Under the pieces are notes generated by a model. That model worked only from the letters and a program-made list of their open reading frames with translations. It did not search any database and was not told the DNA's origin. Positions 30,804 to 45,750 of a stretch of 64,000 nt of DNA are shown one piece after another (position 1 is the first letter of the stretch; the number at the start of each line of letters is the position of its first letter). Where the stretch lies: the NCBI RefSeq assembly GCF_014269395.1, contig NZ_JACOGK010000004.1, positions 44,543 to 108,542 of the forward strand, in the 5' to 3' direction. The position numbers were made by a program, and so were the translations under genes. Source of the stretch: Megasphaera hominis (GTDB lineage: Bacteria > Bacillota > Negativicutes > Veillonellales > Megasphaeraceae).

Positions 30804-30841
30804 AAGGAAGGGCCAAACACAAGGTCCGGCACCACTTCCTT
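30804..30841 (-). terminator. Terminator of the comEA-polC gene run
   Basis: AAGGAAG (30804-30810) pairs with CTTCCTT (30835-30841) plus an inner GGGCC/GGTCC helix; on the minus strand TTTTTC follows. The stem overlaps the polC stop codon. Confidence 0.7.
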
Positions 30842-33800
30842 ACATAGCAAAGAGATCGAGCAGTTCGTCTTCAGGCAAATCACCGAGGCAGCCATATTCG
30901 CTCATCAGGTCCAGCATGGTCTTGCCTACTTTACCGCGCAGCTTGAGGTCCGCTTTGGATGTGAAAGGACGTTCATTGCGGGCCGTTACAATCTGTTCGG
31001 CAACGTTTTCGCCAAGGCCGTCGATAGCCGTAAAGGGCGGCAGTATTTTGCCATCGCAAATGGTAAACTTCGTCGCATCGGAACGGTTAATATCGACATT
31101 GAGGAAGGAATAACCGCGCAGGCTCATTTCCTTCGCCAGTTCCAGGGCCGAATAGAGATCCTGGTCGATTTTGGAGGCACTCTTGCCCATGGCTTTGATT
31201 TCCTTCATAGCCTGCTCCTGTCCTTCCAGGCCGTGTACCATGGCCGAAAGCTTAAAGGCCTTGGCGCGGATCGTAAAGTACGCCGCATAGTAAGCCAGGG
31301 GATAATTGATCTTGAACCAGGCAATGCGGAAGGCCATCATAACGTAGGCCACGGCATGGGCACGGGGGAAGAGGTAGCCGATTTTCAGACATGATTCGAT
31401 GAACCATTCGGGAATGTGCCCTTCCCGCAATTCGCCTTCATAATCGGTCGTCTTCTGGCCCAGCTTGTTCGGCTTGTCAATGCCCTTGCCTTTACGAACA
31501 TTTTCCATGACCTTGAAACTCGTCTTGGGTTTGATACCGTGCTGAATCAGATAGTTCATGATGTCATCACGGGTGGAAACGGCTTCTTTCAGCGGTACGA
31601 CCTTGTTCCGGATCAAATCCTGGGCGTTGTTCAGCCATACGTCTGTACCGTGGGAGAAACCGGAAATACGTACCAGTTCGGAGAAGTTCTTGGGCTTCGT
31701 GTCGACGAGCATTTGCCGGACAAAGGGCGTACCGAATTCGGGAATGCCCAGGCTGCCTACAGGCGAGCCCAGTTCTTCCGGCGTCAGGCCCAGGGCCTTC
31801 GTCGAGCTAAAGAGGCTCATCGTCGCCGGGTCATCAAAGGGAATGGACTTGGCGTCTACGCCGGTCATGTCTTCAAGCATGCGGATAACCGTCGGGTCAT
31901 CGTGACCGAGGATATCGAGCTTGACCAGACGGCCTTCGATGGAGTGATAGTCAAAGTGAGTCGTAATAATGCCCGTATCCTTCTTATTGGCCGGATACTG
32001 GACAGGCGTAAAGTGATGGACGTCCATATCACGGGGAATAACCATGACGCCGCCCGGGTGCTGGCCCGTCGTATTCTTGACACCCATGCAGCCGTTGACC
32101 AGGCTGTTGACGAAGGCATCGTTGACCTTAATCCCCTTGGCGTCGGCCCATTTCATGACGTAGCCGTAAGCCGTCTTGTCTTTGACGACACCGATCGTAC
32201 CGGCGCGGAAAACGTTATCCTTACCAAAGAGTTCTTCCGTATATTTATGGGCTTTCGGATGGTATTCGCCGGAGAAGTTGAGGTCAATATCCGGTACTTT
32301 GTCGCCATCGAAGCCTAAGAAAATAGCAAAAGGAATGTTGTGCCCGTTTTTCTGGAGCTCTGCACCGCAATGGGGGCATTTCTTGTCAGGCAAATCGAAG
32401 CCGCCGCCGTATTCGCCATGCGTAAAGAATTCACTGTACTGGCATTCAGGGCACACATAGTGTGGCGGCAAGGGATTGACTTCTGTAATATCGGACATGG
32501 TCGCAACGAAGGACGAGCCGACAGAACCACGGGAGCCTACGAGGTAGCCATCGTCGTTGGAGTGCTTTACGAGCTTGTGGGCAATGTAATAGAGCACGCC
32601 AAAGCCGTGTCCCAAAATGGATGTAAACTCTTCGGTCAGGCGGTCTTCGACGATCTGCGGCAACGGGTTGCCGTAAATCTTGTGAGCTTTTTCATAGCAC
32701 ATCTTTTTCAGGGCTTCCGAAGAACCGGCAATGCGCGGGAAATAGAGGGTTTCCTTAGGAATAGGCCGGACGTAATCGATTTCATCGTTAATGGCGTTCG
32801 GATTCGTAATGACGACTTCCCGGGCCCGTTCTTCACCGAGATAGGAAAACTCTTCCAGCATTTCATCGGTCGTGCGGAAATAGAGATCCGGCTGGTGCTG
32901 GGCATCCTTGAAGCCCTTGCCGGTCATGAGAATTTCCCGATAGATTTTGTCTTCAGGATTCATGAAATGGGCGTCACACGTAGCGACGGTCTTTTTGCCC
33001 AGTTCATCACCGATGCGCAGGATCTTACGGTTAATATCGCGCAGCCCTTCGTCGTCCGACACGAGGCCTTCGCGGACGAGAAACTCGTTATTCGTAATAG
33101 GCTGGATTTCCAGGTAGTCGTAATACGAGGCGATCTTCTTCAGTTCTTCATAGGGCAGGTTTTTCTGCACCATAGAGCGGACCAGCTCGCCGGCTTCACA
33201 GGCCGAGCCGAGAATGAGTCCTTCGCGGTATTCGTTGAGGACGGCCCGGGGAATACGCGGACGGCCACGGTAAATATATTTCAGGTGGGAAATGCTGACC
33301 AGCTTGTACAGGTTGCGCACGCCGATCTGATTTTTCGCCAGGATAACGATGTGGTACGATTCGTCTATTTTCGTATCGAAGAGGTACCCTTCCATGCCAT
33401 AAATAACCTTGACGTTGTTGGTTTTATTCGTCGAGACGTCCTGCAAGAGCGGGAACGACTGGACGACACCGTGGTCCGTCACGGCAACGGCGGGATGATG
33501 CCATTTCTTGACGGTTTTGATGAGGTCCTTGACCGTAATGAGGGCATCCATATCGCTCATGACCGTATGCAGGTGCAGTTCGACACGGGGCGTCGGGTTC
33601 GTATCGACCCGTTCTGTCGTCGTAGTAGCCGCCGGCATGATGCTGTCTACGTTGAGAACGTAATCGTTGAGATAATCGCTGTACTTGACGTCGCCGTGCA
33701 CCTTGACACTGGCGCCGACCTTCAGGTTGGCCTGCAGAGCATCCAGTTCTTCCTGTGTTATCGTGTTGCGGCGGCGGAATTTACTGTTGCCCTTGGCTAC

Positions 33801-34472
33801 ATCCAAAAATTTCTGGGCCGAAATGCCATTGGTCTTATCGGCCAGCTGGAAATTGACGATAATTCGCTTGGTCTTCGTTTCCCGGAATTCGACTTTGACA
33901 ACGTCTCCCTGGAACAGTACATCCGGCCGTTCTTCACCGATGACGTCGTTAATAGGCGTTACTTCGCCCTTGACGTATTTACCCAGCCAAACGCGGCTGT
34001 CCTTTGTCGTACTGCCGGCAGAACGGGATGCTTTCGTACTGCCCGAACTGCCACCCTTAGCTTCATTAGCTACGGCCATGCAGGCTTTGATGTACGCCGG
34101 ATCGTTGCGCAAGGAATCATCCGGCTCTTCCTGGTCATATATATCTTCATGGGGAATATCATAGCCTTCCATATCCTGACAATCGACATTAGCTATAGCA
34201 TTGAGATCGGCATCGGTCTGGCTGAGGGGCATATCACCGCCGTGATGGAGAAATTCCACACGGTTTTCAACGGTAACCTCACCGGGCAGGGAAAGATGTG
34301 ATACGACTGCTTGTTTCAGAGCTGCTGCATCTTCTACGTTCCAATCGGTCCGGGTCCGCACGTGCCAGTGCCGGCCTTTTTCTTCCGCACAGATTTCCTG
34401 TACCAGAAGATACTTATTTTCTGCAATGGGCAGAGAAAACTCTGTTTTCGGAACAATGTGCAAAATTCTCAT
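30840..34472 (-). CDS. polC: DNA polymerase III PolC without a proofreading exonuclease domain
   Basis: PolC is the essential Gram-positive replicative polymerase. Visible in its 1210 residues are an N-terminal domain, an OB fold (around 160-290), the PHP domain starting VELHLHTVMSDMDA (297-310) and VTDHGVVQSFP (331-341), a zinc-binding CPEC...CPHCG inside the polymerase core, the catalytic-Asp motif VPDIDLNFSGEY, and a helix-hairpin-helix C-terminus. In standard PolC (about 1430 residues) a DEDDh 3'-5' exonuclease of roughly 180-200 residues is inserted in the PHP domain right after YGME. Here YGMEGYLFD (358-366) runs directly into TKIDESYHIVILAKN, the second PHP part, and no FDxETTG motif exists anywhere. 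The length deficit matches. The frame is intact and the junction clean, so this is a domain loss or ancestral absence, not damage. Proofreading would need a separate subunit. Confidence 0.96.
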   Translation of the reverse strand: MRILHIVPKTEFSLPIAENKYLLVQEICAEEKGRHWHVRTRTDWNVEDAAALKQAVVSHLSLPGEVTVENRVEFLHHGGDMPLSQTDADLNAIANVDCQDMEGYDIPHEDIYDQEEPDDSLRNDPAYIKACMAVANEAKGGSSGSTKASRSAGSTTKDSRVWLGKYVKGEVTPINDVIGEERPDVLFQGDVVKVEFRETKTKRIIVNFQLADKTNGISAQKFLDVAKGNSKFRRRNTITQEELDALQANLKVGASVKVHGDVKYSDYLNDYVLNVDSIMPAATTTTERVDTNPTPRVELHLHTVMSDMDALITVKDLIKTVKKWHHPAVAVTDHGVVQSFPLLQDVSTNKTNNVKVIYGMEGYLFDTKIDESYHIVILAKNQIGVRNLYKLVSISHLKYIYRGRPRIPRAVLNEYREGLILGSACEAGELVRSMVQKNLPYEELKKIASYYDYLEIQPITNNEFLVREGLVSDDEGLRDINRKILRIGDELGKKTVATCDAHFMNPEDKIYREILMTGKGFKDAQHQPDLYFRTTDEMLEEFSYLGEERAREVVITNPNAINDEIDYVRPIPKETLYFPRIAGSSEALKKMCYEKAHKIYGNPLPQIVEDRLTEEFTSILGHGFGVLYYIAHKLVKHSNDDGYLVGSRGSVGSSFVATMSDITEVNPLPPHYVCPECQYSEFFTHGEYGGGFDLPDKKCPHCGAELQKNGHNIPFAIFLGFDGDKVPDIDLNFSGEYHPKAHKYTEELFGKDNVFRAGTIGVVKDKTAYGYVMKWADAKGIKVNDAFVNSLVNGCMGVKNTTGQHPGGVMVIPRDMDVHHFTPVQYPANKKDTGIITTHFDYHSIEGRLVKLDILGHDDPTVIRMLEDMTGVDAKSIPFDDPATMSLFSSTKALGLTPEELGSPVGSLGIPEFGTPFVRQMLVDTKPKNFSELVRISGFSHGTDVWLNNAQDLIRNKVVPLKEAVSTRDDIMNYLIQHGIKPKTSFKVMENVRKGKGIDKPNKLGQKTTDYEGELREGHIPEWFIESCLKIGYLFPRAHAVAYVMMAFRIAWFKINYPLAYYAAYFTIRAKAFKLSAMVHGLEGQEQAMKEIKAMGKSASKIDQDLYSALELAKEMSLRGYSFLNVDINRSDATKFTICDGKILPPFTAIDGLGENVAEQIVTARNERPFTSKADLKLRGKVGKTMLDLMSEYGCLGDLPEDELLDLFAM

Positions 34473-34499: not shown

Positions 34500-36053
34500 T
34501 CATTCACTCTCCCCAGCGTCTGCGTCACCAGCTGCAGACGGGGACACGGCTTCTTCGGCCGGGGCTTCCGGGATTTGCGTCGGGTCATGGGGTGCATTGA
34601 GCATGGCATCCTGTGGCTGTTCGCCGTCGAGGTTCGTCGTCTGTACCGTTTCTTCTGACGACGGTCCCGGCGTGAGGATGATTTCCGAGTTAGGGTCGTA
34701 ATGGGAAACGATCGTATCGGTATAATGATCGCCGTCGGCGTAAGCCACAGTGCGGCGGATTGTAATATCGTGGCCGTCGTAGCCTTCCTGATCACGTTTA
34801 TCTTCTGTGACGGAATCGTCATGACGATGGATGACGCGGTGAGGCAGTGTTTTTTGCGAAACCGTGGCAAAAGACACGTTGCATGTATCGGCGTGATTCC
34901 CCAGAATATAGACGGTCAGGGAGCCTTGGTTCATTTCCGTGCAAATATACACGGGATGTTTAAACGGATTAGTAAAAGCGAAATCCAGCGAGTTATCGGC
35001 TACTGTCGCATCCATACCGACGGGTACGTAGCCGGCCGGTGCGTAATGGGGCGAACGGCTGGCGATAATCATGCCCGAACGCAGGGCTGCATTAAAGAGG
35101 GTCGTACTCACCTGGCAGACACCGCCGCCGGCATCGAGGACGACTTTATTATCGAAATAAACCGGTGCGTCTTTGTAGCCCTTATCGCGCGTACGCGTGC
35201 CGATTGTATCGTTAAAGGAGCAATCCTTGCCGGCTGCCACAAGGGTATGATTGAGGAGCTTTTGGGCAATGTTGATGTTTTCATCGCGATTGCCGTTGAC
35301 GCCGTCAAAATGGGTCGTATAGTACGTCAAGACCGTATCGATATCCTTCAGATCAGCTTCTTTGACCTTGGCTTCTGTACGTGCTGTGACCGGCACAGCG
35401 ACGGCAGCCGTACTGCCCTGGTGCAGTTCATCTACGACGCGCTGCTTTAAAGCGTCCGCATCAATGGTGATCTGCGCTTTTTCTTTATGAATTTCTACAC
35501 CCCCCTTGCCTGTCGGCGAGGCATAGGCGTCTTGGGGCTCTGCATTATAGGAATCATGGATCTCGCCGATAGCCTGCGTCAGCTTCTCGTCATCGACAGC
35601 AATGGAAAGAGGTACGTCCTTGCCAAAGCGCAAGGTCTGCACGACATCGGCTACGCGCTGCCAGGGAGTACCCGTGCGGCCGACGAGCAAGGCTTCGTCC
35701 ATAATGCGTTCCCTGTCGAAATGGCCATCGAGTTTCTCCAAAGCCAATGTTTCATTGACGCCGTCTGCCTGGAGGGCCAGCGTCTTTTTGCCCAGCTCCC
35801 CTTCCCGTTCGTCCAAGTACGCATTAATATCGTCTTCCGTCAGATTGGCTGCCTCCTGGCCGTCAATGCTTACCAAGGAAGCTGCCTTGGTCTGGGCAGC
35901 AAAGAAGGTGCCACCGCCAACGACACAGAGGACGGCTACACCGGCGAGTATTTTTTTCCAAGGCCGTTTATGTTCCTTGATGCCGTGGCTTTCGCGATAG
36001 CGACGGCGGTAGTCTTTCATTCTCTCTTTTCTTGCTTTTTCTTCATCCTGCAA
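34500..36053 (-). CDS. VanW-like membrane-anchored protein
   Basis: A 517-residue protein with a short basic cytoplasmic N-terminus and one transmembrane helix (ILAGVAVLCVVGGGTFFAA), placing the bulk outside the inner membrane. The centre has a repeated peptidoglycan-binding-type segment (DVPLSIAVDDEKLTQAI), then the VanW domain with GTRTRDKGYKDAPVYFDN and DAGGGVCQVSTTLFNAALRS. The C-terminal 120 residues resemble a G5-like/extracellular domain and a Glu/Ala/Pro-rich tail. VanW-family proteins are tied to the cell envelope in Firmicutes but have no settled activity. The frame begins with TTG at 36053, three bases after holA's stop; an ATG at 36020 is an alternative start. It lies between holA and polC on the same strand. 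Confidence 0.8.
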   Translation of the reverse strand: MQDEEKARKERMKDYRRRYRESHGIKEHKRPWKKILAGVAVLCVVGGGTFFAAQTKAASLVSIDGQEAANLTEDDINAYLDEREGELGKKTLALQADGVNETLALEKLDGHFDRERIMDEALLVGRTGTPWQRVADVVQTLRFGKDVPLSIAVDDEKLTQAIGEIHDSYNAEPQDAYASPTGKGGVEIHKEKAQITIDADALKQRVVDELHQGSTAAVAVPVTARTEAKVKEADLKDIDTVLTYYTTHFDGVNGNRDENINIAQKLLNHTLVAAGKDCSFNDTIGTRTRDKGYKDAPVYFDNKVVLDAGGGVCQVSTTLFNAALRSGMIIASRSPHYAPAGYVPVGMDATVADNSLDFAFTNPFKHPVYICTEMNQGSLTVYILGNHADTCNVSFATVSQKTLPHRVIHRHDDSVTEDKRDQEGYDGHDITIRRTVAYADGDHYTDTIVSHYDPNSEIILTPGPSSEETVQTTNLDGEQPQDAMLNAPHDPTQIPEAPAEEAVSPSAAGDADAGESE

Positions 36054-36055
36054 CG

Positions 36056-37102
36056 TTAAGCCCTGCCTTTATGGTGACAATATAAGCAAATGAGCTGTTC
36101 CATATCGATGGGCGCAGCCATACCTCTGCGAATATTGAGCTGTAGTGTAAATATCTGGCTGATGAGTTCATCCAGTTCTTCTATTTTCCAATATGAAATC
36201 ACTTTTTTCAAGCTATATAACGCATATTTTACAGATTTTCCCCGATTGACGCCGGTGAGGATTTCATCACACTGCCGGGGCGGACAATGGGCGGCTAATA
36301 ATTCCTTATAGGCCCGTAAGAGCCGCAGGCGCGTAATGACATACCCCGTATTCTTCAGAAAGGCATCCTGCTTGGCGAAGAGGCCATCTACAAAGGGCAA
36401 GGTATGGGCCCCATCGCGTTGGAGAAAATAATCGGTAAAGGTAAAAAGATTCTTTTCCATAGAACCGGCAAAGAGGGCCGTCAAGTCCTTCGCGTCGATC
36501 TGCTTCGTGCCATCGGGAAGCATGATCTGCAGCTTATCCAGTTCGGAAAAAACGTACATGAGGGGAATCGTTTCCCACGTCTGAAAGAGGGCCCGCAAAT
36601 AGCGGTCGCCCCGGCTGGTTAGGGAAAGGTTATGCTGCGCCAGGTAGTCGTTGACATAGGTCATGACCGATTTGTTATCGACAGGGCGGCATTCTGCCAC
36701 GTCGGCCAGCTTAGACAATTCCTTGAAAAAGACACAGCCCGTATCGAGCTTGCTCGTTTCTTTGGGCATCTTGGTAATAAAAAGGAGACCATTCGTTTCG
36801 GGCATATTCTCCATTTGCGCAAGAAACCACGTCTCTTCCTTCGTCAGCTTACTGCGCGAACGGCCGCCATGCTTGATGGGCAGCAAAGGGCAATCCTTCC
36901 AAATGACCAGGCCGCTGCCGCCAAAAAGGGATGATGCCTGAAAGGCCTCCACCACCGTGGCTACAGGTACGTCTTTTTCAAAAACCGTCTGTTCCGGCGC
37001 TTCCCCGGCCCGCTGCTGGCAGGCTGTGAGAAAGCGGCGTTCTTCCCGTTCCATGAGGTACGGTTCATTACCGTATATACACTTAATATTGCTATGCTTC
37101 AT
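36056..37102 (-). CDS. holA: DNA polymerase III delta subunit (clamp loader)
   Basis: A 348-residue HolA, the clamp-loader subunit that opens the sliding clamp. IKCIYGNEPYLMEREERRFL is the typical Firmicute start. FQASSLFGGSGLVIWKDCP and the ISYWKIEELDELISQIFTL C-terminal segment are recognisable. The frame is open for another 131 codons upstream, but that part is a shadow of comEC; the ATG at 37102 has AGGAGG at ideal distance and overlaps the comEC stop by 11 bases. The comEA-comEC-holA order is standard. Confidence 0.9.
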   Translation of the reverse strand: MKHSNIKCIYGNEPYLMEREERRFLTACQQRAGEAPEQTVFEKDVPVATVVEAFQASSLFGGSGLVIWKDCPLLPIKHGGRSRSKLTKEETWFLAQMENMPETNGLLFITKMPKETSKLDTGCVFFKELSKLADVAECRPVDNKSVMTYVNDYLAQHNLSLTSRGDRYLRALFQTWETIPLMYVFSELDKLQIMLPDGTKQIDAKDLTALFAGSMEKNLFTFTDYFLQRDGAHTLPFVDGLFAKQDAFLKNTGYVITRLRLLRAYKELLAAHCPPRQCDEILTGVNRGKSVKYALYSLKKVISYWKIEELDELISQIFTLQLNIRRGMAAPIDMEQLICLYCHHKGRA

Positions 37103-39233
37103 GAGCGGTGCCTCCTGCTGTCGTATAAGACCAGGTTCCCTGGCGCCACGTTGCCGTAATGGCACCGTCCAACGCCGGTGTAAAACAAGGAATACCATAA
37201 GCCTGGCCCAAGCGCCGCCATTCTTTCCAGGCCCTGTCGGAAAAGGCCTGGCCGCTGTCGTAGACGACGAGAGCCGCTGCCTCTTTGGGAAAGGCTTCCG
37301 GCGAAATTCCCTGCAGGGACCGTACTTCCAGGCAGGCCATAGACGGCCAGTCTGTATGGGGAATCGTATCATAGACATAATAAGGCAGAGAAACGGCTGC
37401 GGCCGTATAAGGTCCTGCCTTTTCACCTGCTTCGATGACCTGCTGCACGGCCAGATTGCTGCACAGCTGCGTCGCCGTAGGGCCTGTAGTTTCACCGCTC
37501 ACGGTAACACTTTCTAAGGCAAAGATGCCGTGATAGCGCAAGGCCGGTACGAGGACACAGGCAGCCTGTTCGGGATTAGACCATCGGCTCTTATTATACC
37601 ACAAGTACGCCGAACTATCATCATGGACGACGCACGTAGCCTTGTCGTTTCCTACGTCGAAAATATAGACCGTAAGCTCCGGTTTTTGCCACCACGCATA
37701 GCACGACGGCACGAGAAAAACCAGTGCCGCCAGCGGCATGAGCAGGCGGCGTTTTTCCGGCAAGAAGAAGATGGCTCCGATGAGGAGATAATAGGCAGCG
37801 GCACTATACCAGGGCAGGGCACCGAGCCACCAGCGGCTGTGCGGCAAGGAGGCGAGAAAATAATTGCCCTTGACGGCCAGCTCCATGAAAGGCTGAATGA
37901 CTGCCAGTAGTACCTGGCCCAAGGGCAGAAAGAGAAGGCCTGCGACGGATGCGGCCAGGCCCAGCAAAATAACCAGATCGAGGATGGGGCCGACGAGGAT
38001 ATTGGCAAAGACCGAATAGACCGGCAAGGAGGAAAAGCTGGCCAGGAGCAAGGGTACGAGCAGGAGCTGCGCACTCACGCAGACGGCAATACCGTCACGC
38101 AAAAAGGGTGGTAAGGCCGTGAGGACCCGGCTTATAGGCTGGCGCAGGAGGATGATGCCGGCAGAAGCACCATAGGACAGGCGGAAGCTCAAATCAAAGA
38201 GCAGGCAGGGACTATAGATGAGCATCACCAGAGATGTCAGGGCCAGGGCGTGAAAGGCCGTATAGTCACGGCGGGCAACGAGACTGCCGGCAGCGATGAT
38301 GCCCATGGCTGCTGCACGCACGACGGGCGCCGTAAAATCCGACAGGGCTCCATAAAAGAGAACGACCACAGCGGAAAGAGAAAAGAGCGCCGCTTCCCGT
38401 AATTTCAAAGACCGTCCCAGAAGCTGGATCAAGGACAGCAAGAGAGCTACGTGGGAACCCGATACAGAAAGTATATGGATAATCTTTGTCGAACTGAAGC
38501 TTTCCAGGAGAGCCGGTGGCAGTTCATCGTAATGGCCGCCAAAGAGAAGGCTGCTCAGCATGTTTGCCTGATCTCTGGAAAGGACAGTCCCATAGAAAGC
38601 TACCAAGCGCTCGCGCAGGGAATAGACGACCAGGGAAAGTCCCCGTGGCGGCGCAAGGATACGTACAGGCGTACCGGCCTTGGCGTAGGCTTTGAGGAAG
38701 ATGTCCCCTTCCCGATCACGGTGCCTGGCATCGTAAAGACCTTCGTTGCCGTAATAGCGTATGGGCCGTACAGCCGCCGTCACGGCCAGACGTGTAGACG
38801 GGATGTACTCTTTGCTGCCCGGCAGCGTCACGTACAGGTTTCCCGTGGGCTCGTCCAAAACGGCAGCACCGGCAGCGCTATAGGCCAGGCGGTCCAAGGT
38901 AAGGACATAGCGGGTCAGGGTCCCTTCGTCCGTACTGTAGGAGTTCTTCTTCTCTACAACCGTTCCTTCTATGTACCAGGTTTTGCCGGCCAGGTGCACC
39001 GGTAATGACGCATAGTGCCGGGCATCCCACTGCATTCGTCCGGCACCGCAAAAAAAGACGGCTATGAGGAGCAGAGCCAGAAAGAGATGCGGCTTTTGCC
39101 GGGCCAGCCAGCAAAGGGGCGCACAAAGAGCGGCTAAAACAAGCCAGCTGTACCAGGGCAAACTAAAGGCATCGGCCACGGCAATGCCACAGGCGAAGGC
39201 CACCGCCATGGCCAGGCCGAGATAGAGCTTCAT
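37092..39233 (-). CDS. comEC: DNA uptake channel ComEC/Rec2 with a degenerate MBL domain
   Basis: ComEC forms the inner-membrane channel through which single-stranded DNA enters during transformation. This 713-residue copy has the N-terminal OB-like segment (TWYIEGTVVEKKNSYST) and a competence core with IIHILSVSGSHVALLLSLIQ, the family's best signature, followed by many hydrophobic helices. The C-terminal region begins VYIFDVGNDKATCVVHDD, the normal start of the metallo-beta-lactamase-like domain. The HxHxDH metal motif that should follow is missing: the equivalent stretch reads VSGETTGPTATQLC. The fold seems kept but not the nuclease-type active site. The gene overlaps comEA and holA by a few bases each. 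Confidence 0.92.
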   Translation of the reverse strand: MKLYLGLAMAVAFACGIAVADAFSLPWYSWLVLAALCAPLCWLARQKPHLFLALLLIAVFFCGAGRMQWDARHYASLPVHLAGKTWYIEGTVVEKKNSYSTDEGTLTRYVLTLDRLAYSAAGAAVLDEPTGNLYVTLPGSKEYIPSTRLAVTAAVRPIRYYGNEGLYDARHRDREGDIFLKAYAKAGTPVRILAPPRGLSLVVYSLRERLVAFYGTVLSRDQANMLSSLLFGGHYDELPPALLESFSSTKIIHILSVSGSHVALLLSLIQLLGRSLKLREAALFSLSAVVVLFYGALSDFTAPVVRAAAMGIIAAGSLVARRDYTAFHALALTSLVMLIYSPCLLFDLSFRLSYGASAGIILLRQPISRVLTALPPFLRDGIAVCVSAQLLLVPLLLASFSSLPVYSVFANILVGPILDLVILLGLAASVAGLLFLPLGQVLLAVIQPFMELAVKGNYFLASLPHSRWWLGALPWYSAAAYYLLIGAIFFLPEKRRLLMPLAALVFLVPSCYAWWQKPELTVYIFDVGNDKATCVVHDDSSAYLWYNKSRWSNPEQAACVLVPALRYHGIFALESVTVSGETTGPTATQLCSNLAVQQVIEAGEKAGPYTAAAVSLPYYVYDTIPHTDWPSMACLEVRSLQGISPEAFPKEAAALVVYDSGQAFSDRAWKEWRRLGQAYGIPCFTPALDGAITATWRQGTWSYTTAGGTAHEA

Positions 39234-39957: not shown

Positions 39958-41409
39958 CTACCAATTCCCCTTGCTTTTCCAAAAGCTGCGGTGCAGCATA
40001 GCCAGTACCGTAAACAGTTCCAGCCGCCCAAGGAGCATGGAAATGCAAAGAATAGATTTGGAAAAGACCGAAAGGCCGGCATAGGTACTCGTTGCGCCAG
40101 TAATGCCAAAGGACGGTCCAATACAGCCCATGGTCGTCACGCTGATGCCGATGGCATCGAAAATATTGATACCATCCCACGTGAGGAGGAGGGCCCAAAA
40201 GGCAATGAAGGCTAAATACAGAAAAAAGAACTGGCTCACGCGGATGACCGTATCTTCGTTGACGCGCTTATTATTGACACGCACTTCGGCAATCATGCGC
40301 GGATGAACGCGCTGGAAGACCAAGGTCCACAGGGAACGGCACAGGATAACGACACGGGAAATCTTAACACCTGCCGCCGTCGAGCCCGTACAGCCGCCAC
40401 TGATCATGAGCAGCATGAGGATGCCCTTGGAAAAGCCCGGCCACTGGTCGTAATCGGCCGAGACAAAACCAGTCGTAGCAATAGACGCTGCCTGAAAGGA
40501 CGCGTAGCGGATGGCCGTAAAGAGATCGATAGGAAAGGCCTGCAGCAAATCGGCGGCAATGCAGGCCGTAGCCAGGCCGAGGATGAACAGGTAGGCCTTA
40601 AATTCCGTATTTCTGCGGACGACGCCAAAGCCCTTGCGGTAAAACTGGTAATAGAGACCAAAGTTACCACCGGCGAGGACCATGAAAAAGGTCATCCACC
40701 CTTCAATAGCCGGACTGTCGAAATGGGCAGCACTTTGATTATAAATAGAAAAGCCACCGGCAGAAATAGTCGACATGGCGTGGTTGAGAGCGCTGAAAAA
40801 GTCCATGCCGCAGAGATAAAAGACGATGATCGCCACGACCGTAAAGAGCATGTACATGCGAAAAAGCATGTGTGTCGTATCGCGCAGGCGCGGCAAGAGC
40901 CGGTCTGCCGTCGGGCCCGTATCCTCGGCGTTATGCATGAAGACCGTATGCTGCCCCGATTCAGGCAGGATGGCAATGAAGATGACGACGATCCCCAGGC
41001 CGCCGAGCCAGTGGGTCAAGCTGCGCCAAAAGAGGATGCTAAAAGGCAGAACTTCCAGGTCTTCAATGACTGTCGCCCCCGTACCGGTAAACCCGGAAAT
41101 GCTTTCAAAGACGCCGTCCAATAGATTGAGGTAGCCGCCGACGACGTAAGGCAGCATGCCCAGGAAGGTTGCCAGGAGCCAGCCCAGGCCCGTAATGGCA
41201 ATGCCTTCGCGCATAGTGAGACGCTTCGTACGGATGCGGCCAATGCGCAAAAGAACGATGCCACACAAGGCCATGATGGCAGCCGAAATTATAAAATAAA
41301 TCAGATCGTCTTCCCAATATACGAGTGCCATGAGCAGGGGCACACAGGTTACACCGGCCTCAGCCAGGGAAATCTGTCCCAGGAAGCGGCAGACAACACG
41401 ATAATCCAT
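39958..41409 (-). CDS. trkH: TrkH/KtrB-type potassium transporter subunit (copy 1)
   Basis: A 483-residue K+ channel-like subunit with four pseudo-repeated membrane-pore-membrane units. The four selectivity-filter loops are all conserved: SGFTGTGATV, STISAGGFS, SIATTGFVS and TMGCIGPSFG. It works with the cytoplasmic TrkA ring for K+ uptake. It is about 65% similar by eye to the next gene and is the last of three tandem paralogues downstream of trkA. The start at 41409 follows a ribosome-binding site-like AGGTGAG. Confidence 0.92.
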   Translation of the reverse strand: MDYRVVCRFLGQISLAEAGVTCVPLLMALVYWEDDLIYFIISAAIMALCGIVLLRIGRIRTKRLTMREGIAITGLGWLLATFLGMLPYVVGGYLNLLDGVFESISGFTGTGATVIEDLEVLPFSILFWRSLTHWLGGLGIVVIFIAILPESGQHTVFMHNAEDTGPTADRLLPRLRDTTHMLFRMYMLFTVVAIIVFYLCGMDFFSALNHAMSTISAGGFSIYNQSAAHFDSPAIEGWMTFFMVLAGGNFGLYYQFYRKGFGVVRRNTEFKAYLFILGLATACIAADLLQAFPIDLFTAIRYASFQAASIATTGFVSADYDQWPGFSKGILMLLMISGGCTGSTAAGVKISRVVILCRSLWTLVFQRVHPRMIAEVRVNNKRVNEDTVIRVSQFFFLYLAFIAFWALLLTWDGINIFDAIGISVTTMGCIGPSFGITGATSTYAGLSVFSKSILCISMLLGRLELFTVLAMLHRSFWKSKGNW

Positions 41410-41455
41410 AGACTCACCTCTTTTGCGCAGAATTGATAGTATGTTTCCTTAGGAA

Positions 41456-42907
41456 TTACCAGCCGCTGCGCCGCCAAAAGGCAGGCATGAGAAGAGCCAG
41501 TATGGGATACATTTCCAAACGGCCGAGAAGCATGGAAATACAAACGACGATCTTGCTGAGAACAGGCAGGTCCGCATAGGTACAGGTCGGGCCTACCATG
41601 CCGAAGGCCGGACCACAGCTGCCCATAGTAGAAACGCTGAGACCAATGGCATCCAGCGTAGGGACACCATCCCAGATAAAAAGGACCGACCAGAGCGTAT
41701 CGAGGAATACATACATGACAAAAAAACGCATGACGCCGTATAACACATCTTCACTGTAATCGGAACCATTAGAATGGACGACGAGAACGCTACGCGGCGC
41801 CAGCTTTTGCCGCACGAGCGTATATATAGATTTTACCAGCAGCTGCAACCGCGTCATTTTCAGGCCGCCGGCAGTCGAACCGGCACAGCCGCCGCAGAAC
41901 ATGAGAAACAACAGGAGGGCCCGGGAAAAGGCCGGCCACGTATCGAAATCAGCCGACACGAAGCCGGTAGACGAGGAAATGGATGCCGCCTGAAAAAGGG
42001 ACTGCCGGAAAGCCTCTACCGGTGCATAAGCGAGGTCACTCACAAGATTCCAGGCCATGAGGGCCGTCGTCACGAATACGAGGCACACGTAGAGGCGGAA
42101 CTCTGCGTCCTTCAAAATCACCTTAGGGCCCTTGCGCCAGGCAGCGACGTACAGGCCGAAGTTGGCGCTGGAAATGATCATGAAAAAGGTAATCCAGCCT
42201 TCAATGAGGGGACTGTCAAAATGGGCCACACTGTCGTTATACGGCGAAAAACCGCCTGTAGCGATGGTTGAAAAGGCATGATCCAGAGCGACGAGAAAAC
42301 TCATGCCACAGAAATAATACGCTGCCGTCGCCGCTGCCGTAAAGACGACGTACACGAGGAACAAGGCCTTGGCCATTTCCCGGATACGCGGCATCATGCG
42401 GTCCGACGTAGGACCTGTACTTTCGGCATCGATCATGTGCCCCATGCCCCGGCCGAGTTGGGGAAAGACGGCGACGAAGATAACGACGATACCGAGGCCG
42501 CCAAACCAATGGGTCAGGCTGCGCCAAATAAGAATGCTGCCCGGCAGGGCTTCGATATCCGTAAGCACCGTAGCGCCTGTGCCGGAAAGGCCGGAAATAC
42601 ATTCCAGCGTACCATCGAGAACATTCAAATAGCCGCCAAATACATAGGGCAGCATGCCCAGGAAGGTAATGAGAATCCACGCCAGTCCTGTAATGGCCAC
42701 GCCTTCACGGCCCGTCAGGGTTTCACTGGCAAAGTTCCCCTTCTTTTCGAGGATCCAGCCCAGGCAAAAATTGATGACCGCCGCCATAAAGAGCGGTACA
42801 AGGCCACCGTCCTGCTCAATCAGAGCAATAACCGCCGGAATGAGGAGAACCAAGCCCAGCGCCTTGGCAATACGGCCCAAAAAATACAATACTACACGTA
42901 TATCCAT
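41456..42907 (-). CDS. trkH: TrkH/KtrB-type potassium transporter subunit (copy 2)
   Basis: A 483-residue paralogue of copy 1, the same length to the residue, with matching filter loops SGLSGTGATV, STIATGGFS, SISSSTGFVS (one extra Ser in the third loop) and TMGSCGPAFG. It lies 46 bases upstream of copy 1 on the same strand with no terminator between them. The close resemblance of copies 1 and 2 indicates a local duplication followed by divergence. Confidence 0.92.
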   Translation of the reverse strand: MDIRVVLYFLGRIAKALGLVLLIPAVIALIEQDGGLVPLFMAAVINFCLGWILEKKGNFASETLTGREGVAITGLAWILITFLGMLPYVFGGYLNVLDGTLECISGLSGTGATVLTDIEALPGSILIWRSLTHWFGGLGIVVIFVAVFPQLGRGMGHMIDAESTGPTSDRMMPRIREMAKALFLVYVVFTAAATAAYYFCGMSFLVALDHAFSTIATGGFSPYNDSVAHFDSPLIEGWITFFMIISSANFGLYVAAWRKGPKVILKDAEFRLYVCLVFVTTALMAWNLVSDLAYAPVEAFRQSLFQAASISSSTGFVSADFDTWPAFSRALLLFLMFCGGCAGSTAGGLKMTRLQLLVKSIYTLVRQKLAPRSVLVVHSNGSDYSEDVLYGVMRFFVMYVFLDTLWSVLFIWDGVPTLDAIGLSVSTMGSCGPAFGMVGPTCTYADLPVLSKIVVCISMLLGRLEMYPILALLMPAFWRRSGW

Positions 42908-42955
42908 GAATAGTGCACTTCTCTCTTTCTACTGTGCTGTCTCAGGCCACAGTGG

Positions 42956-44401
42956 TTACCATTTGCTGCGAAATTGGGAAATCACAGTCTGTATGACGAC
43001 GAGGAAGGAAAAGATTTCTATCCGTCCCAGAATCATGACCAGGCTGCAATACAATTTGGTCCATACAGGCAGTGTCGCATACGCATCGAGGCCATACAGA
43101 GCTGCCGTCGAGCCGACACTGGAAAGGCAGCCTGCAGCCAGGCCCATGGCTTGGAGCAAGGTCACGCCGGATAAGGAAATAATCAGCATGGACAGGAAAA
43201 AGACAGACATATATAAAAAGAAAAAGCTAAGGACACGGCTAATAATCCGCATGGGCACAGGCACATTATCGATTTTCAGGCTAATGACCATTTGCGGGTG
43301 GAGCGTGCGTTGCATTTCCTTAATGGCCATACGAAAGAGGACGATAATACGCATAACCCGGAGGCCGCCTGTGGCCGAACCGATACAGCCGCCGACGAAT
43401 ACCAGGAGAAATAAGGCGTAGCGGTCAAATTCAGGCCAGCCTGTAAACTGGGTAGATGAAAGGCCTGTCGTACTGATAAAGGAAATAACTGCAAAGAAAC
43501 CATAGCGCAGGCTTGCCAGGCCATCGAAGGTGTGCGTATGCCAAAGGTGAAAAGAAATCAGGATCCCTGCGACAGCGATAATTCCCAGGAAGGTGCGCAG
43601 CTCGTGATCGCGGAAAATTTCCAGCCAGCGTTTCCGGGCAAAGGCCTTCCAAATGAGGAGAAAGTTGCAGCTCGCTACGATCATCGAAAGGATGGCCGCC
43701 AGCTCGAGGAAAATGTTGCCGTTGCCTACGACATCGAGGGACATGAGGGTACCACTCGTTGAAACCGTATCCATCGACCAGGCAAGGGCATCGGTCGGCG
43801 CCAGGCCGGCCAGAAAGTACAAGACAAAGGATAATACCGTAATGGCAATATAGACCTTGCCAGTCTGGATGGCTGCATTGTCCATGCGCGTCAGCATAGG
43901 GCTAAAGGCGATACTCTGGTGGGCCGACAGGACGATGCCGAAACCGCCGCTGACCTGCGGTATGATAGTTACGACGAGGATGATAAAATTGAGGCCGCCC
44001 ATCCATTCCATCATACTGCGCCAAAGGAGGATAGAATTGGGGACCACATCGTAATCGAGAAAACTGAGGCCTGTCGTCGTATAGGCAGAAATACTTTCAA
44101 AAAATGCGTCTGCCGGCGCCAGGAGGCCCTGTAAAATATACGGTGTCATGCCGATAAAGCCCAGGAGAAACCAGACGGAAAGCAAGTAAACGGCACCTTC
44201 AGCTACGCCAAGCTGTTTCTTATGCACGTGGCCAGTCCGTTCGAGAAAGACCCCTAACGCCAACGTCACTACTAAGGGCATGGCGTAGGACAGTTCCGTA
44301 TTCTCCTGCCAGAGCATGGCGCAGACCAGGGGTATAGCCAAGGCCGCCGCGTTCAGCAAAGCCATCCGTCCCATAATGAACAGATAAAGGCGTATACTCA
44401 T
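42956..44401 (-). CDS. Divergent TrkH-like potassium transporter subunit (copy 3)
   Basis: A 481-residue TrkH-like protein clearly less conserved than the other two. Its filter loops are SAYTTTGLSF, DTVSTSGTLM, SFISTTGLSS and CLSSVGSTAA. The first three keep a central Gly; the fourth reads SVGST where the others have a G-P-x-F-G context. ESISAYTTTGL and WRSMMEWMGGLNFIILVV are still family-typical. The gene starts two bases after the trkA stop codon, so this copy, not copies 1 or 2, is translationally closest to the regulatory subunit. Altered selectivity or a regulatory role is possible. Confidence 0.85.
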   Translation of the reverse strand: MSIRLYLFIMGRMALLNAAALAIPLVCAMLWQENTELSYAMPLVVTLALGVFLERTGHVHKKQLGVAEGAVYLLSVWFLLGFIGMTPYILQGLLAPADAFFESISAYTTTGLSFLDYDVVPNSILLWRSMMEWMGGLNFIILVVTIIPQVSGGFGIVLSAHQSIAFSPMLTRMDNAAIQTGKVYIAITVLSFVLYFLAGLAPTDALAWSMDTVSTSGTLMSLDVVGNGNIFLELAAILSMIVASCNFLLIWKAFARKRWLEIFRDHELRTFLGIIAVAGILISFHLWHTHTFDGLASLRYGFFAVISFISTTGLSSTQFTGWPEFDRYALFLLVFVGGCIGSATGGLRVMRIIVLFRMAIKEMQRTLHPQMVISLKIDNVPVPMRIISRVLSFFFLYMSVFFLSMLIISLSGVTLLQAMGLAAGCLSSVGSTAALYGLDAYATLPVWTKLYCSLVMILGRIEIFSFLVVIQTVISQFRSKW

Positions 44402-44403
44402 GA

Positions 44404-45750
44404 CTAGTCCCTGCCTTTAAAATAACGCATAACTGTTTTGGAGTGTTCTGTCTGGATAAAGAGGATCGTCCGGTCACCAGCTTCGAGGACAGAGCTGCCG
44501 TCCGGAATGTGGGCCACGTCATCGCGCACGTACGCACAGACCAGGCATTCCCTTGGGAGCCGTACATCCATAAGGCGTTTGCCTGCGACAGGCGCACCGG
44601 CCTGGACGATGACTTCTACGGCCTCAGCCTTGGCCCCTTCAAGAAGTGATACGGATACAACGCCGCCACGGCGGGCGAAGGCCAGCACTTCACTGGCAGA
44701 AAGGAGACGGGACGAAAGGACGATATCGACACCGACCTTCTGCATGAGGTCTACATATTCGATGCGGGCTACACGGACGATCGTCTTTTTGGCACCAAAA
44801 TGCTTGGCAATAAGGGCCAGCATGAGGTTCAGCTTGTCATCTTCTGTAATACAGATGACTACGTCCGCATCGGCTACGCCTTCCTGGACGAGGAGGTCGA
44901 TATCCGTGCCATCGCCACAGATGGCAATGCCGCTGTTTAAATGATCGGCAACGAGGCGGCAGCGTTCGCGGTCCTTTTCAATGACCTTTACATTGACGTC
45001 CTGATCGTCGAGCATGGCTGCCAGGGAGCGGCCTGTCCGGCCGGCGCCGATAATCATGACCCGTTCGACCTTTTTTGTGCCGCTGGGGACGAAGTTGGTG
45101 CTGAATTTTTCAATGGCTTTGGGATCGCCAATGAAATAGGCATTATCATGAGGCAAGAGACAATCATCGCCATGCGGGATGATCATGCGGTGATCCCGGA
45201 AGATCATGCCGGCCAGAATAGATTTTGGCATTTCCAAATTTTTTAAGGGAATGTTGGCCAAGGGCGAATGGCGGCGTACCTTCGTTTCAAAGAGACGGAC
45301 CTTGCCGTTGGCAAAATCTTCTACGTCGAGAGCTGCCGGCATCATGAGGATGCGGTCAATTTCACGGGCCGTAATCAATTCCGGATTGAGCATGAGGTCG
45401 ATGTCGAAATTTTCCCGCAAATAATCTTTGGCTTCCGACATGAACTGCATATCGCGGATCCGCGCTGCCGTATAGCGGATGCCATGTTTTTTCGCTAAAA
45501 TACAGGCGATCATATTTACTTCGTCTACAGCCGTAACGGCGACGAGGATATCCGAATTGCGGATATCCGGATCGTTCATGGTAATCGGGCTGGCGCCATT
45601 GGCCTGAATCGTCAAGACATCAAGGTTATTCTTGACGTTTTCCAACCGATCCTTATTCTGGTCTACTACTACTACATCATACTGTTCGTTTGACAATAGC
45701 TCAGCAATACTATATCCTAGCTTGCCGGCGCCAATTATTACAATACGCAA
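44404..45750 (-). CDS. trkA: Trk potassium uptake regulatory subunit TrkA
   Basis: A 448-residue cytoplasmic protein made of two RCK units, each a Rossmann NAD/ATP-binding fold plus a TrkA-C domain: VIIGAGKLGYSIAELL at the N-terminus and VMIIGAGRTGRSLAAML around 230. It gates the TrkH channel in response to nucleotides. The start is a TTG at 45750, well supported by GGAGGGAC upstream and the exact family N-terminus (LRIVIIGAG). It is the first gene of a four-gene operon with three trkH paralogues, so one ring protein may serve several channel subunits. Confidence 0.93.
   Translation of the reverse strand: MRIVIIGAGKLGYSIAELLSNEQYDVVVVDQNKDRLENVKNNLDVLTIQANGASPITMNDPDIRNSDILVAVTAVDEVNMIACILAKKHGIRYTAARIRDMQFMSEAKDYLRENFDIDLMLNPELITAREIDRILMMPAALDVEDFANGKVRLFETKVRRHSPLANIPLKNLEMPKSILAGMIFRDHRMIIPHGDDCLLPHDNAYFIGDPKAIEKFSTNFVPSGTKKVERVMIIGAGRTGRSLAAMLDDQDVNVKVIEKDRERCRLVADHLNSGIAICGDGTDIDLLVQEGVADADVVICITEDDKLNLMLALIAKHFGAKKTIVRVARIEYVDLMQKVGVDIVLSSRLLSASEVLAFARRGGVVSVSLLEGAKAEAVEVIVQAGAPVAGKRLMDVRLPRECLVCAYVRDDVAHIPDGSSVLEAGDRTILFIQTEHSKTVMRYFKGRD

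Follow-up and report, generated by a model that had tools for sequence, protein, structure and literature searches.

PolC is an essential replicase and drug target that is usually described with a DEDDh proofreading exonuclease domain (Exo) of its own. Here we analyze the polC gene of a 64,000-nucleotide stretch of contig NZ_JACOGK010000004.1 (hereafter the window), the product of which has no such domain. Exo-less PolCs were reported in Clostridia and Negativicutes by Timinskas et al. in 2013 (PMC3919608), with a share of 6% among PolC sequences and of 16% in systems that combine PolC with DnaE1; the species of the window was not found by name in the available portion of that paper. In 2015, the authors describing Sporomusa ovata PolC1 noted that all metal ligands of its PHP domain are present and suggested a role of PHP in proofreading (PMC4632017); no mention of the missing Exo was found in the available portion of that paper. 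PHP exonuclease activity has been measured in Mycobacterium tuberculosis DnaE1 (PMC5636811), which is a DnaE and not a PolC, and in which a loop of 29 residues occupies the place at which Exo may be inserted in PolC. A drug-target survey from 2025 was limited to PolCs whose PHP carries an RNase T insertion (620 of 1,158; PMC11963600), a selection that would leave out Exo-less PolCs.

The window PolC resembles the variant of Timinskas et al. in its PolC domain order, its continuous PHP without Exo and its class, and a DnaE1 partner is present in its relatives. The S. ovata PolC1 (a 1223-residue frame) is likewise Exo-less, and its substitution E587K would correspond to window residue 563, beyond the last metal ligand, if the numbering starts at the first Met of that frame. 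In contrast, Exo is inserted in the natural proteins of the Bacillus subtilis type (9qpc; Geobacillus kaustophilus, construct 3f2b), the latter with Asn at the ligand equivalent to window D500. As the Exo-less form was published in 2013 and a role for PHP was suggested in 2015, the window PolC adds one more example to a variant already known, which answers the question of novelty that the first-pass annotation of this DNA had left open: it is an ordinary Exo-less PolC of Negativicutes and was inherited vertically.

The window PolC and its junction

The following features, all on the minus strand, were located in the window:

30840..34472, minus strand, polC (ATG start, open reading frame (ORF) of 1210 amino acids)
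33633..33914, minus strand, OB-fold region (residues 187-280), N-terminal of PHP as in PolC
33120..33581, minus strand, PHP domain (Pfam, residues 298-451, a single continuous stretch)
33546..33575, minus strand, PHP ligands H300, H302 and D309
33471..33473, minus strand, PHP ligand H334
33351..33392, minus strand, junction at the DEDDh site of other PolCs, from E361 (ligand 5) to H374 (ligand 6)
33198..33200, minus strand, PHP ligand C425
32967..32975, minus strand, PHP ligands D500 and H502
32283..32291, minus strand, polymerase catalytic residues D728 and D730
31914..31916, minus strand, polymerase catalytic residue D853
30849..30863, minus strand, position of the C-terminal clamp-binding motif, here LLDLF (QxxLF in nearly all relatives listed)

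By descent and by its matches to hidden Markov models (HMMs), the protein is a PolC without the Exo-containing architecture. It scored 1482.8 bits against the NCBIfam PolC model NF001688 (cut-off 873) and 1364.5 bits against TIGR01405 (cut-off 1043.45), with the best stretch beginning at residue 371 (position 613 of 1445). Pfam matched PHP, DNA_pol3_alpha, DNA_pol3_finger and HHH_6 (residues 1121-1200), while the OB region is present in the predicted structural model with a Pfam match below the cut-off.

The absence of the DEDDh exonuclease, noticed in the first-pass annotation from the letters alone, was borne out by both profile searches: PF00929 had no match in the window PolC at E ≤ 1, and an HMM built from the Exo domains of 30 Exo-containing PolCs (which as its training set score 264-319 bits) found none among 179 Exo-less PolC rows, window included, with the threshold set at E ≤ 10. 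The motif YGMEGYLFD (residues 358-366, window 33401-33375), which lies within the interval flagged at that time, runs on directly into the second part of an uninterrupted PHP. Between E361 and H374 there are 12 residues, vs. 209-217 in the 30 Exo-containing PolCs and 12-37 in Exo-less rows, and residues 356-376 of the window PolC, a slot of 21 residues, correspond to 218-226 residues where the insert is present. In the predicted model, the junction consists of two strands and a short connecting turn. The description of a clean junction holds, as does that of a protein shorter by about one Exo domain (1210 vs. 1382-1488 amino acids in the 28 Exo-containing PolCs uncut by a contig end) with an intact polymerase (Asp 728, 730 and 853).

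The PHP metal site, whose conservation the annotation had proposed to check, is complete. All nine ligands of the pattern HHDHEH[C/H]DH are present and read HHDHEHCDH (H300, H302, D309, H334, E361, H374, C425, D500, H502), the final two lying beyond the end of the Pfam PHP match, and the predicted PHP fold is closed. To say that this PolC has no proofreading would be too strong, because only the DEDDh domain is missing.

Distribution and history of Exo-less PolC

In our trees, 53 related PolC loci and the window (group N) cluster in a single supported group that comprises Megasphaera, Veillonella, Sporomusa, Pelosinus and kin. The window PolC groups with Megasphaera (Negativicutes), class membership being taken from the PolC tree only, and its nearest row is L001 from Veillonellaceae bacterium Marseille-P2974. 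PolC was matched at E ≤ 1e-80 in 145 of 150 genomes of the class, with no frame above 1350 amino acids among the matches listed, and 90 loci from these genomes (group C; the genomes overlap with those of group N) were examined at the junction, where 88 were readable, all without Exo. A phylum-wide sample of 119 genomes yielded 90 PolCs above the cut-off, of which, by our reading, 31 cover the Exo region, 56 omit it and three are cut by contig ends (one of them, from G196, has a piece that runs into Exo). The Exo-less share is therefore 56 of 87 resolvable PolCs, as opposed to the 6% (16%) of Timinskas et al., although the samples differ. Since Exo-less PolCs outnumber Exo-containing ones in this sample, editing by PHP, shown for some DnaE, may serve many bacteria with PolC.

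Adding 35 of the 56 Exo-less PolCs of the phylum sample (group S) brings the Exo-less rows with a readable junction to 176: the window, 52 named loci, 88 from group C and these 35. L010 and L187 are one frameshifted gene, L152 and L322 are fragments, and in L307, whose ligands are intact, the alignment at the junction slot covers fewer than 15 residues. All nine ligands were intact in 170 of the 176 fully readable rows: 47 of the 54 in group N (six others have Asn at ligands 3 and 8, and one is a fragment), 35 of 35 in group S, and 88 in group C, where two more are fragments. Among the 30 Exo-containing PolCs, 27 have intact ligands and three have Asn at ligand 8.

A single origin of the Exo-less state was rejected on a 76-row tree (approximately unbiased test, p = 0.00137), which needs five changes of Exo state, four of them forced by supported branches, and which omits L152, L133, L139, all of group C but six and all of group N but eight. 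A 119-row tree needs seven changes, only two of them forced by supported branches. Both trees are quick searches whose root is unknown, hence gain and loss of Exo are indistinguishable in them. Phage records gave no DNA-level match.

Possible sources of proofreading

Proofreading by PHP is the best-supported mechanism for the window PolC, and we consider it probable. Observed here are the absence of Exo, the nine ligands, the closed predicted fold and the repeated change of Exo state; in addition, nearly all relatives conserve the clamp motif, and nearly all Exo-less relatives the ligands. The window PolC would work beside DnaE1 as a clamp-bound polymerase and, after addition of a wrong nucleotide, the frayed primer end would most likely be cut not by a DEDDh exonuclease but by its own PHP, presumed to be a three-metal nuclease like that of Mycobacterium DnaE1; the exonuclease activity, the transfer of the primer into PHP and the share of PolC in replication are what we infer here. 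Several points weigh against this reading. The DNA-guiding loop has 29 residues in M. tuberculosis, while only 12 lie between ligands 5 and 6 in the window. A DEDDh protein is found in most genomes of the class (135 of 150 with a PF00929 match), and the window strain was surveyed within the 64-kb window only, where none of the 47 ORFs judged likely genes besides PolC matched PF00929 at E ≤ 1e-5. Tighter constraint on PHP after Exo loss was tested and not found, the ratio of PHP to polymerase (Pol) protein distances being similar (median 1.51 in 83 Exo-less pairs with intact ligands, range 0.45-5.54, vs. 1.58 in 13 Exo-containing pairs; P = 0.56). Finally, a fast-evolving PHP after ligand loss (see below) was seen in one clade, by two pairs on protein distances, and intact pairs reach 5.54.

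That the Exo domain was deleted by an assembly or annotation error is hardly credible: a broken PolC frame can arise in a draft, as in Megasphaera sp. NM10 (L010), where a frameshift splits polC into ORFs of 442 and 813 amino acids, but the window has no such sign, an uninterrupted Exo-less frame (1203-1294 amino acids) is likewise present at 52 of the 53 loci of other assemblies, and the 176 rows span the junction. Alternatively, PHP could be mainly structural in PolC, with DnaE1 and its own PHP performing accurate synthesis and editing and PolC being secondary, a possibility raised by Timinskas et al. for the PolC and DnaE1 system (PMC3919608). All 16 relatives examined, a set outside which the window strain lies, have a DnaE above the TIGR00594 cut-off, and each of these DnaE1 proteins has the nine ligands; a Veillonella clade also tolerates loss of PHP ligands while keeping the polymerase residues and the clamp motif. 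Retention of the PolC ligands in 170 of 176 rows, however, goes beyond the need of a purely structural role, and we regard this alternative as unlikely. As a second replicative polymerase with intact PHP ligands, DnaE1 is a further possible source of fidelity.

It is quite unlikely, in our view, that a separate DEDDh protein, for example of a family of about 190 amino acids with the motif IDFETAN, edits for PolC in trans as epsilon does in Escherichia coli. The profile of this family matched 112 of 150 class genomes at E ≤ 0.001 (some of these being weak cross-matches to other DEDDh proteins), and in Megasphaera hutchinsoni this protein is the sole PF00929 match. Against it, the same search left 38 of 150 genomes without the family, its best match is PRK06195, below that cut-off, with PolC Exo matched weakly, no link to polC was seen, and no DEDDh protein of any kind was detected in 14 of 150 genomes. 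The last figure refers to DnaQ-type exonucleases sought with four profiles (PF00929, TIGR00573 at E ≤ 1, A1, and the PolC-Exo alignment A3, which gave a hit in all six further genomes scanned, each known to have a DEDDh match); G032, one of the 15 genomes negative for PF00929, was matched by TIGR00573 and A1, thus a search with PF00929 can miss. Ten PolCs of the 14 genomes were read, nine with all ligands and one (L322) with its five readable ligands intact; G128 has no PolC match, and the PolCs of G031, G112 and G147 fell outside the sample. One of the 14 (G057) is a single contig of 4,781,198 bases, two (G117, G125) share their PolC sequence with Sporomusa silvacetica DSM 10669 and S. acidovorans, and DnaE with intact ligands was present in all six that were searched. 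Of the three options named in the first-pass annotation, PHP is the one best supported, by its nine ligands and closed predicted fold; stand-alone DEDDh proteins are common in the class and not universal.

Three stand-alone DEDDh proteins, L141 (G198), L142 (G236) and L143 (G179), scored 213-218 bits with the PolC Exo model, vs. 85-107 for the Negativicutes family of about 190 amino acids. A quick tree with long branches places the three among the Exo domains of PolC. The PolCs of G198 (L168) and G236 (L161) are Exo-less, and G179 has no PolC above the cut-off. Excision of Exo from PolC into its own gene was considered and rejected: PRK06807 matched better than the PolC model (189.0/181.3, 183.5/181.1 and 211.8/176.9 bits for L141, L142 and L143, respectively), so that an origin by fission is not established. 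By ORF reading, the genes of L141 and L142 are flanked by an MFS-like and an HD-like gene. In Veillonella and kin (L056, L092-L105 and similar), proteins of about 860-890 amino acids carry DEDDh in their second half (about 490-680), for which the label DinG comes from length alone.

The six rows with altered ligands belong to Veillonella sp. VA142, VA137, VA139, CHU740, 3310 and 3891 (L034, L035, L036, L038, L039, L049) and form one supported clade with unambiguous local sequence. These PolCs are Exo-less, as are all Negativicutes rows read, and have Asn at the positions of window D309 and D500, while the catalytic Asp residues are kept and the C-terminus reads QMSLF or QMNLF. The substitutions resemble D23N and D226N, which give dead mutants in M. 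tuberculosis; the residues were matched by chain order and ligand type without a printed alignment. The PHP/Pol protein-distance ratio reaches 3.62 and 6.94 in two disjoint pairs vs. the median of 1.51 (P = 0.023, one evolutionary event), and nonsynonymous divergence (dN) is about six times higher in PHP than in Pol (0.135/0.021, 0.133/0.022, 0.026/0.004); the corresponding factor is 1.1-1.9 for five Veillonella pairs with intact ligands and 0.9-1.2 for two pairs that include the window. Synonymous divergence was saturated or undefined for several pairs. In the same six genomes, DnaE1 keeps all nine ligands, and each genome has three PF00929 matches (about 210-240, about 310-340, and 877-887 amino acids). 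We lean towards the view that this PolC has lost both intrinsic proofreaders, Exo being absent and two PHP ligands having followed, with polymerase and clamp motif intact, and that living cells retain it, the PHP of DnaE1 or a DEDDh protein in trans doing the editing. This apparent double loss, with neither proofreader left in PolC itself, may be new; no report of it was found in the main texts of the open-licence literature, and, as far as the intrinsic part is concerned, the clade would be an exception to a 2026 paper in Nucleic Acids Research (PMC12926913). If true, it would form, together with the Sporomusa genomes that have PHP and no detectable DEDDh protein, a natural series in which PHP proofreading in PolC is directly testable.

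Clamp motif and gene neighborhood

The first residue of the clamp motif in the window is Leu (CTG, 30861-30863). Gln occupies this position in L001 (codon CAA) and in nearly all relatives listed; L178 (His) and L307 (Ser) also deviate. The Leu codon could be a real change or a sequence error. The polC gene is flanked by a TrpR-like regulator and MscL on one side and by two further genes on the other:

34500..36053, minus strand, VanW-like gene (PF04294), between the holA-like ORF and polC
36056..37495, minus strand, upstream holA-like ORF (DNA polymerase III delta; PF06144, E 1e-6)

The start codon of the holA-like ORF is uncertain, and its frame overlaps a ComEC-like ORF. Elsewhere in the window (39958-45750, minus strand), three consecutive TrkH-like genes lie beside a TrkA-like gene.
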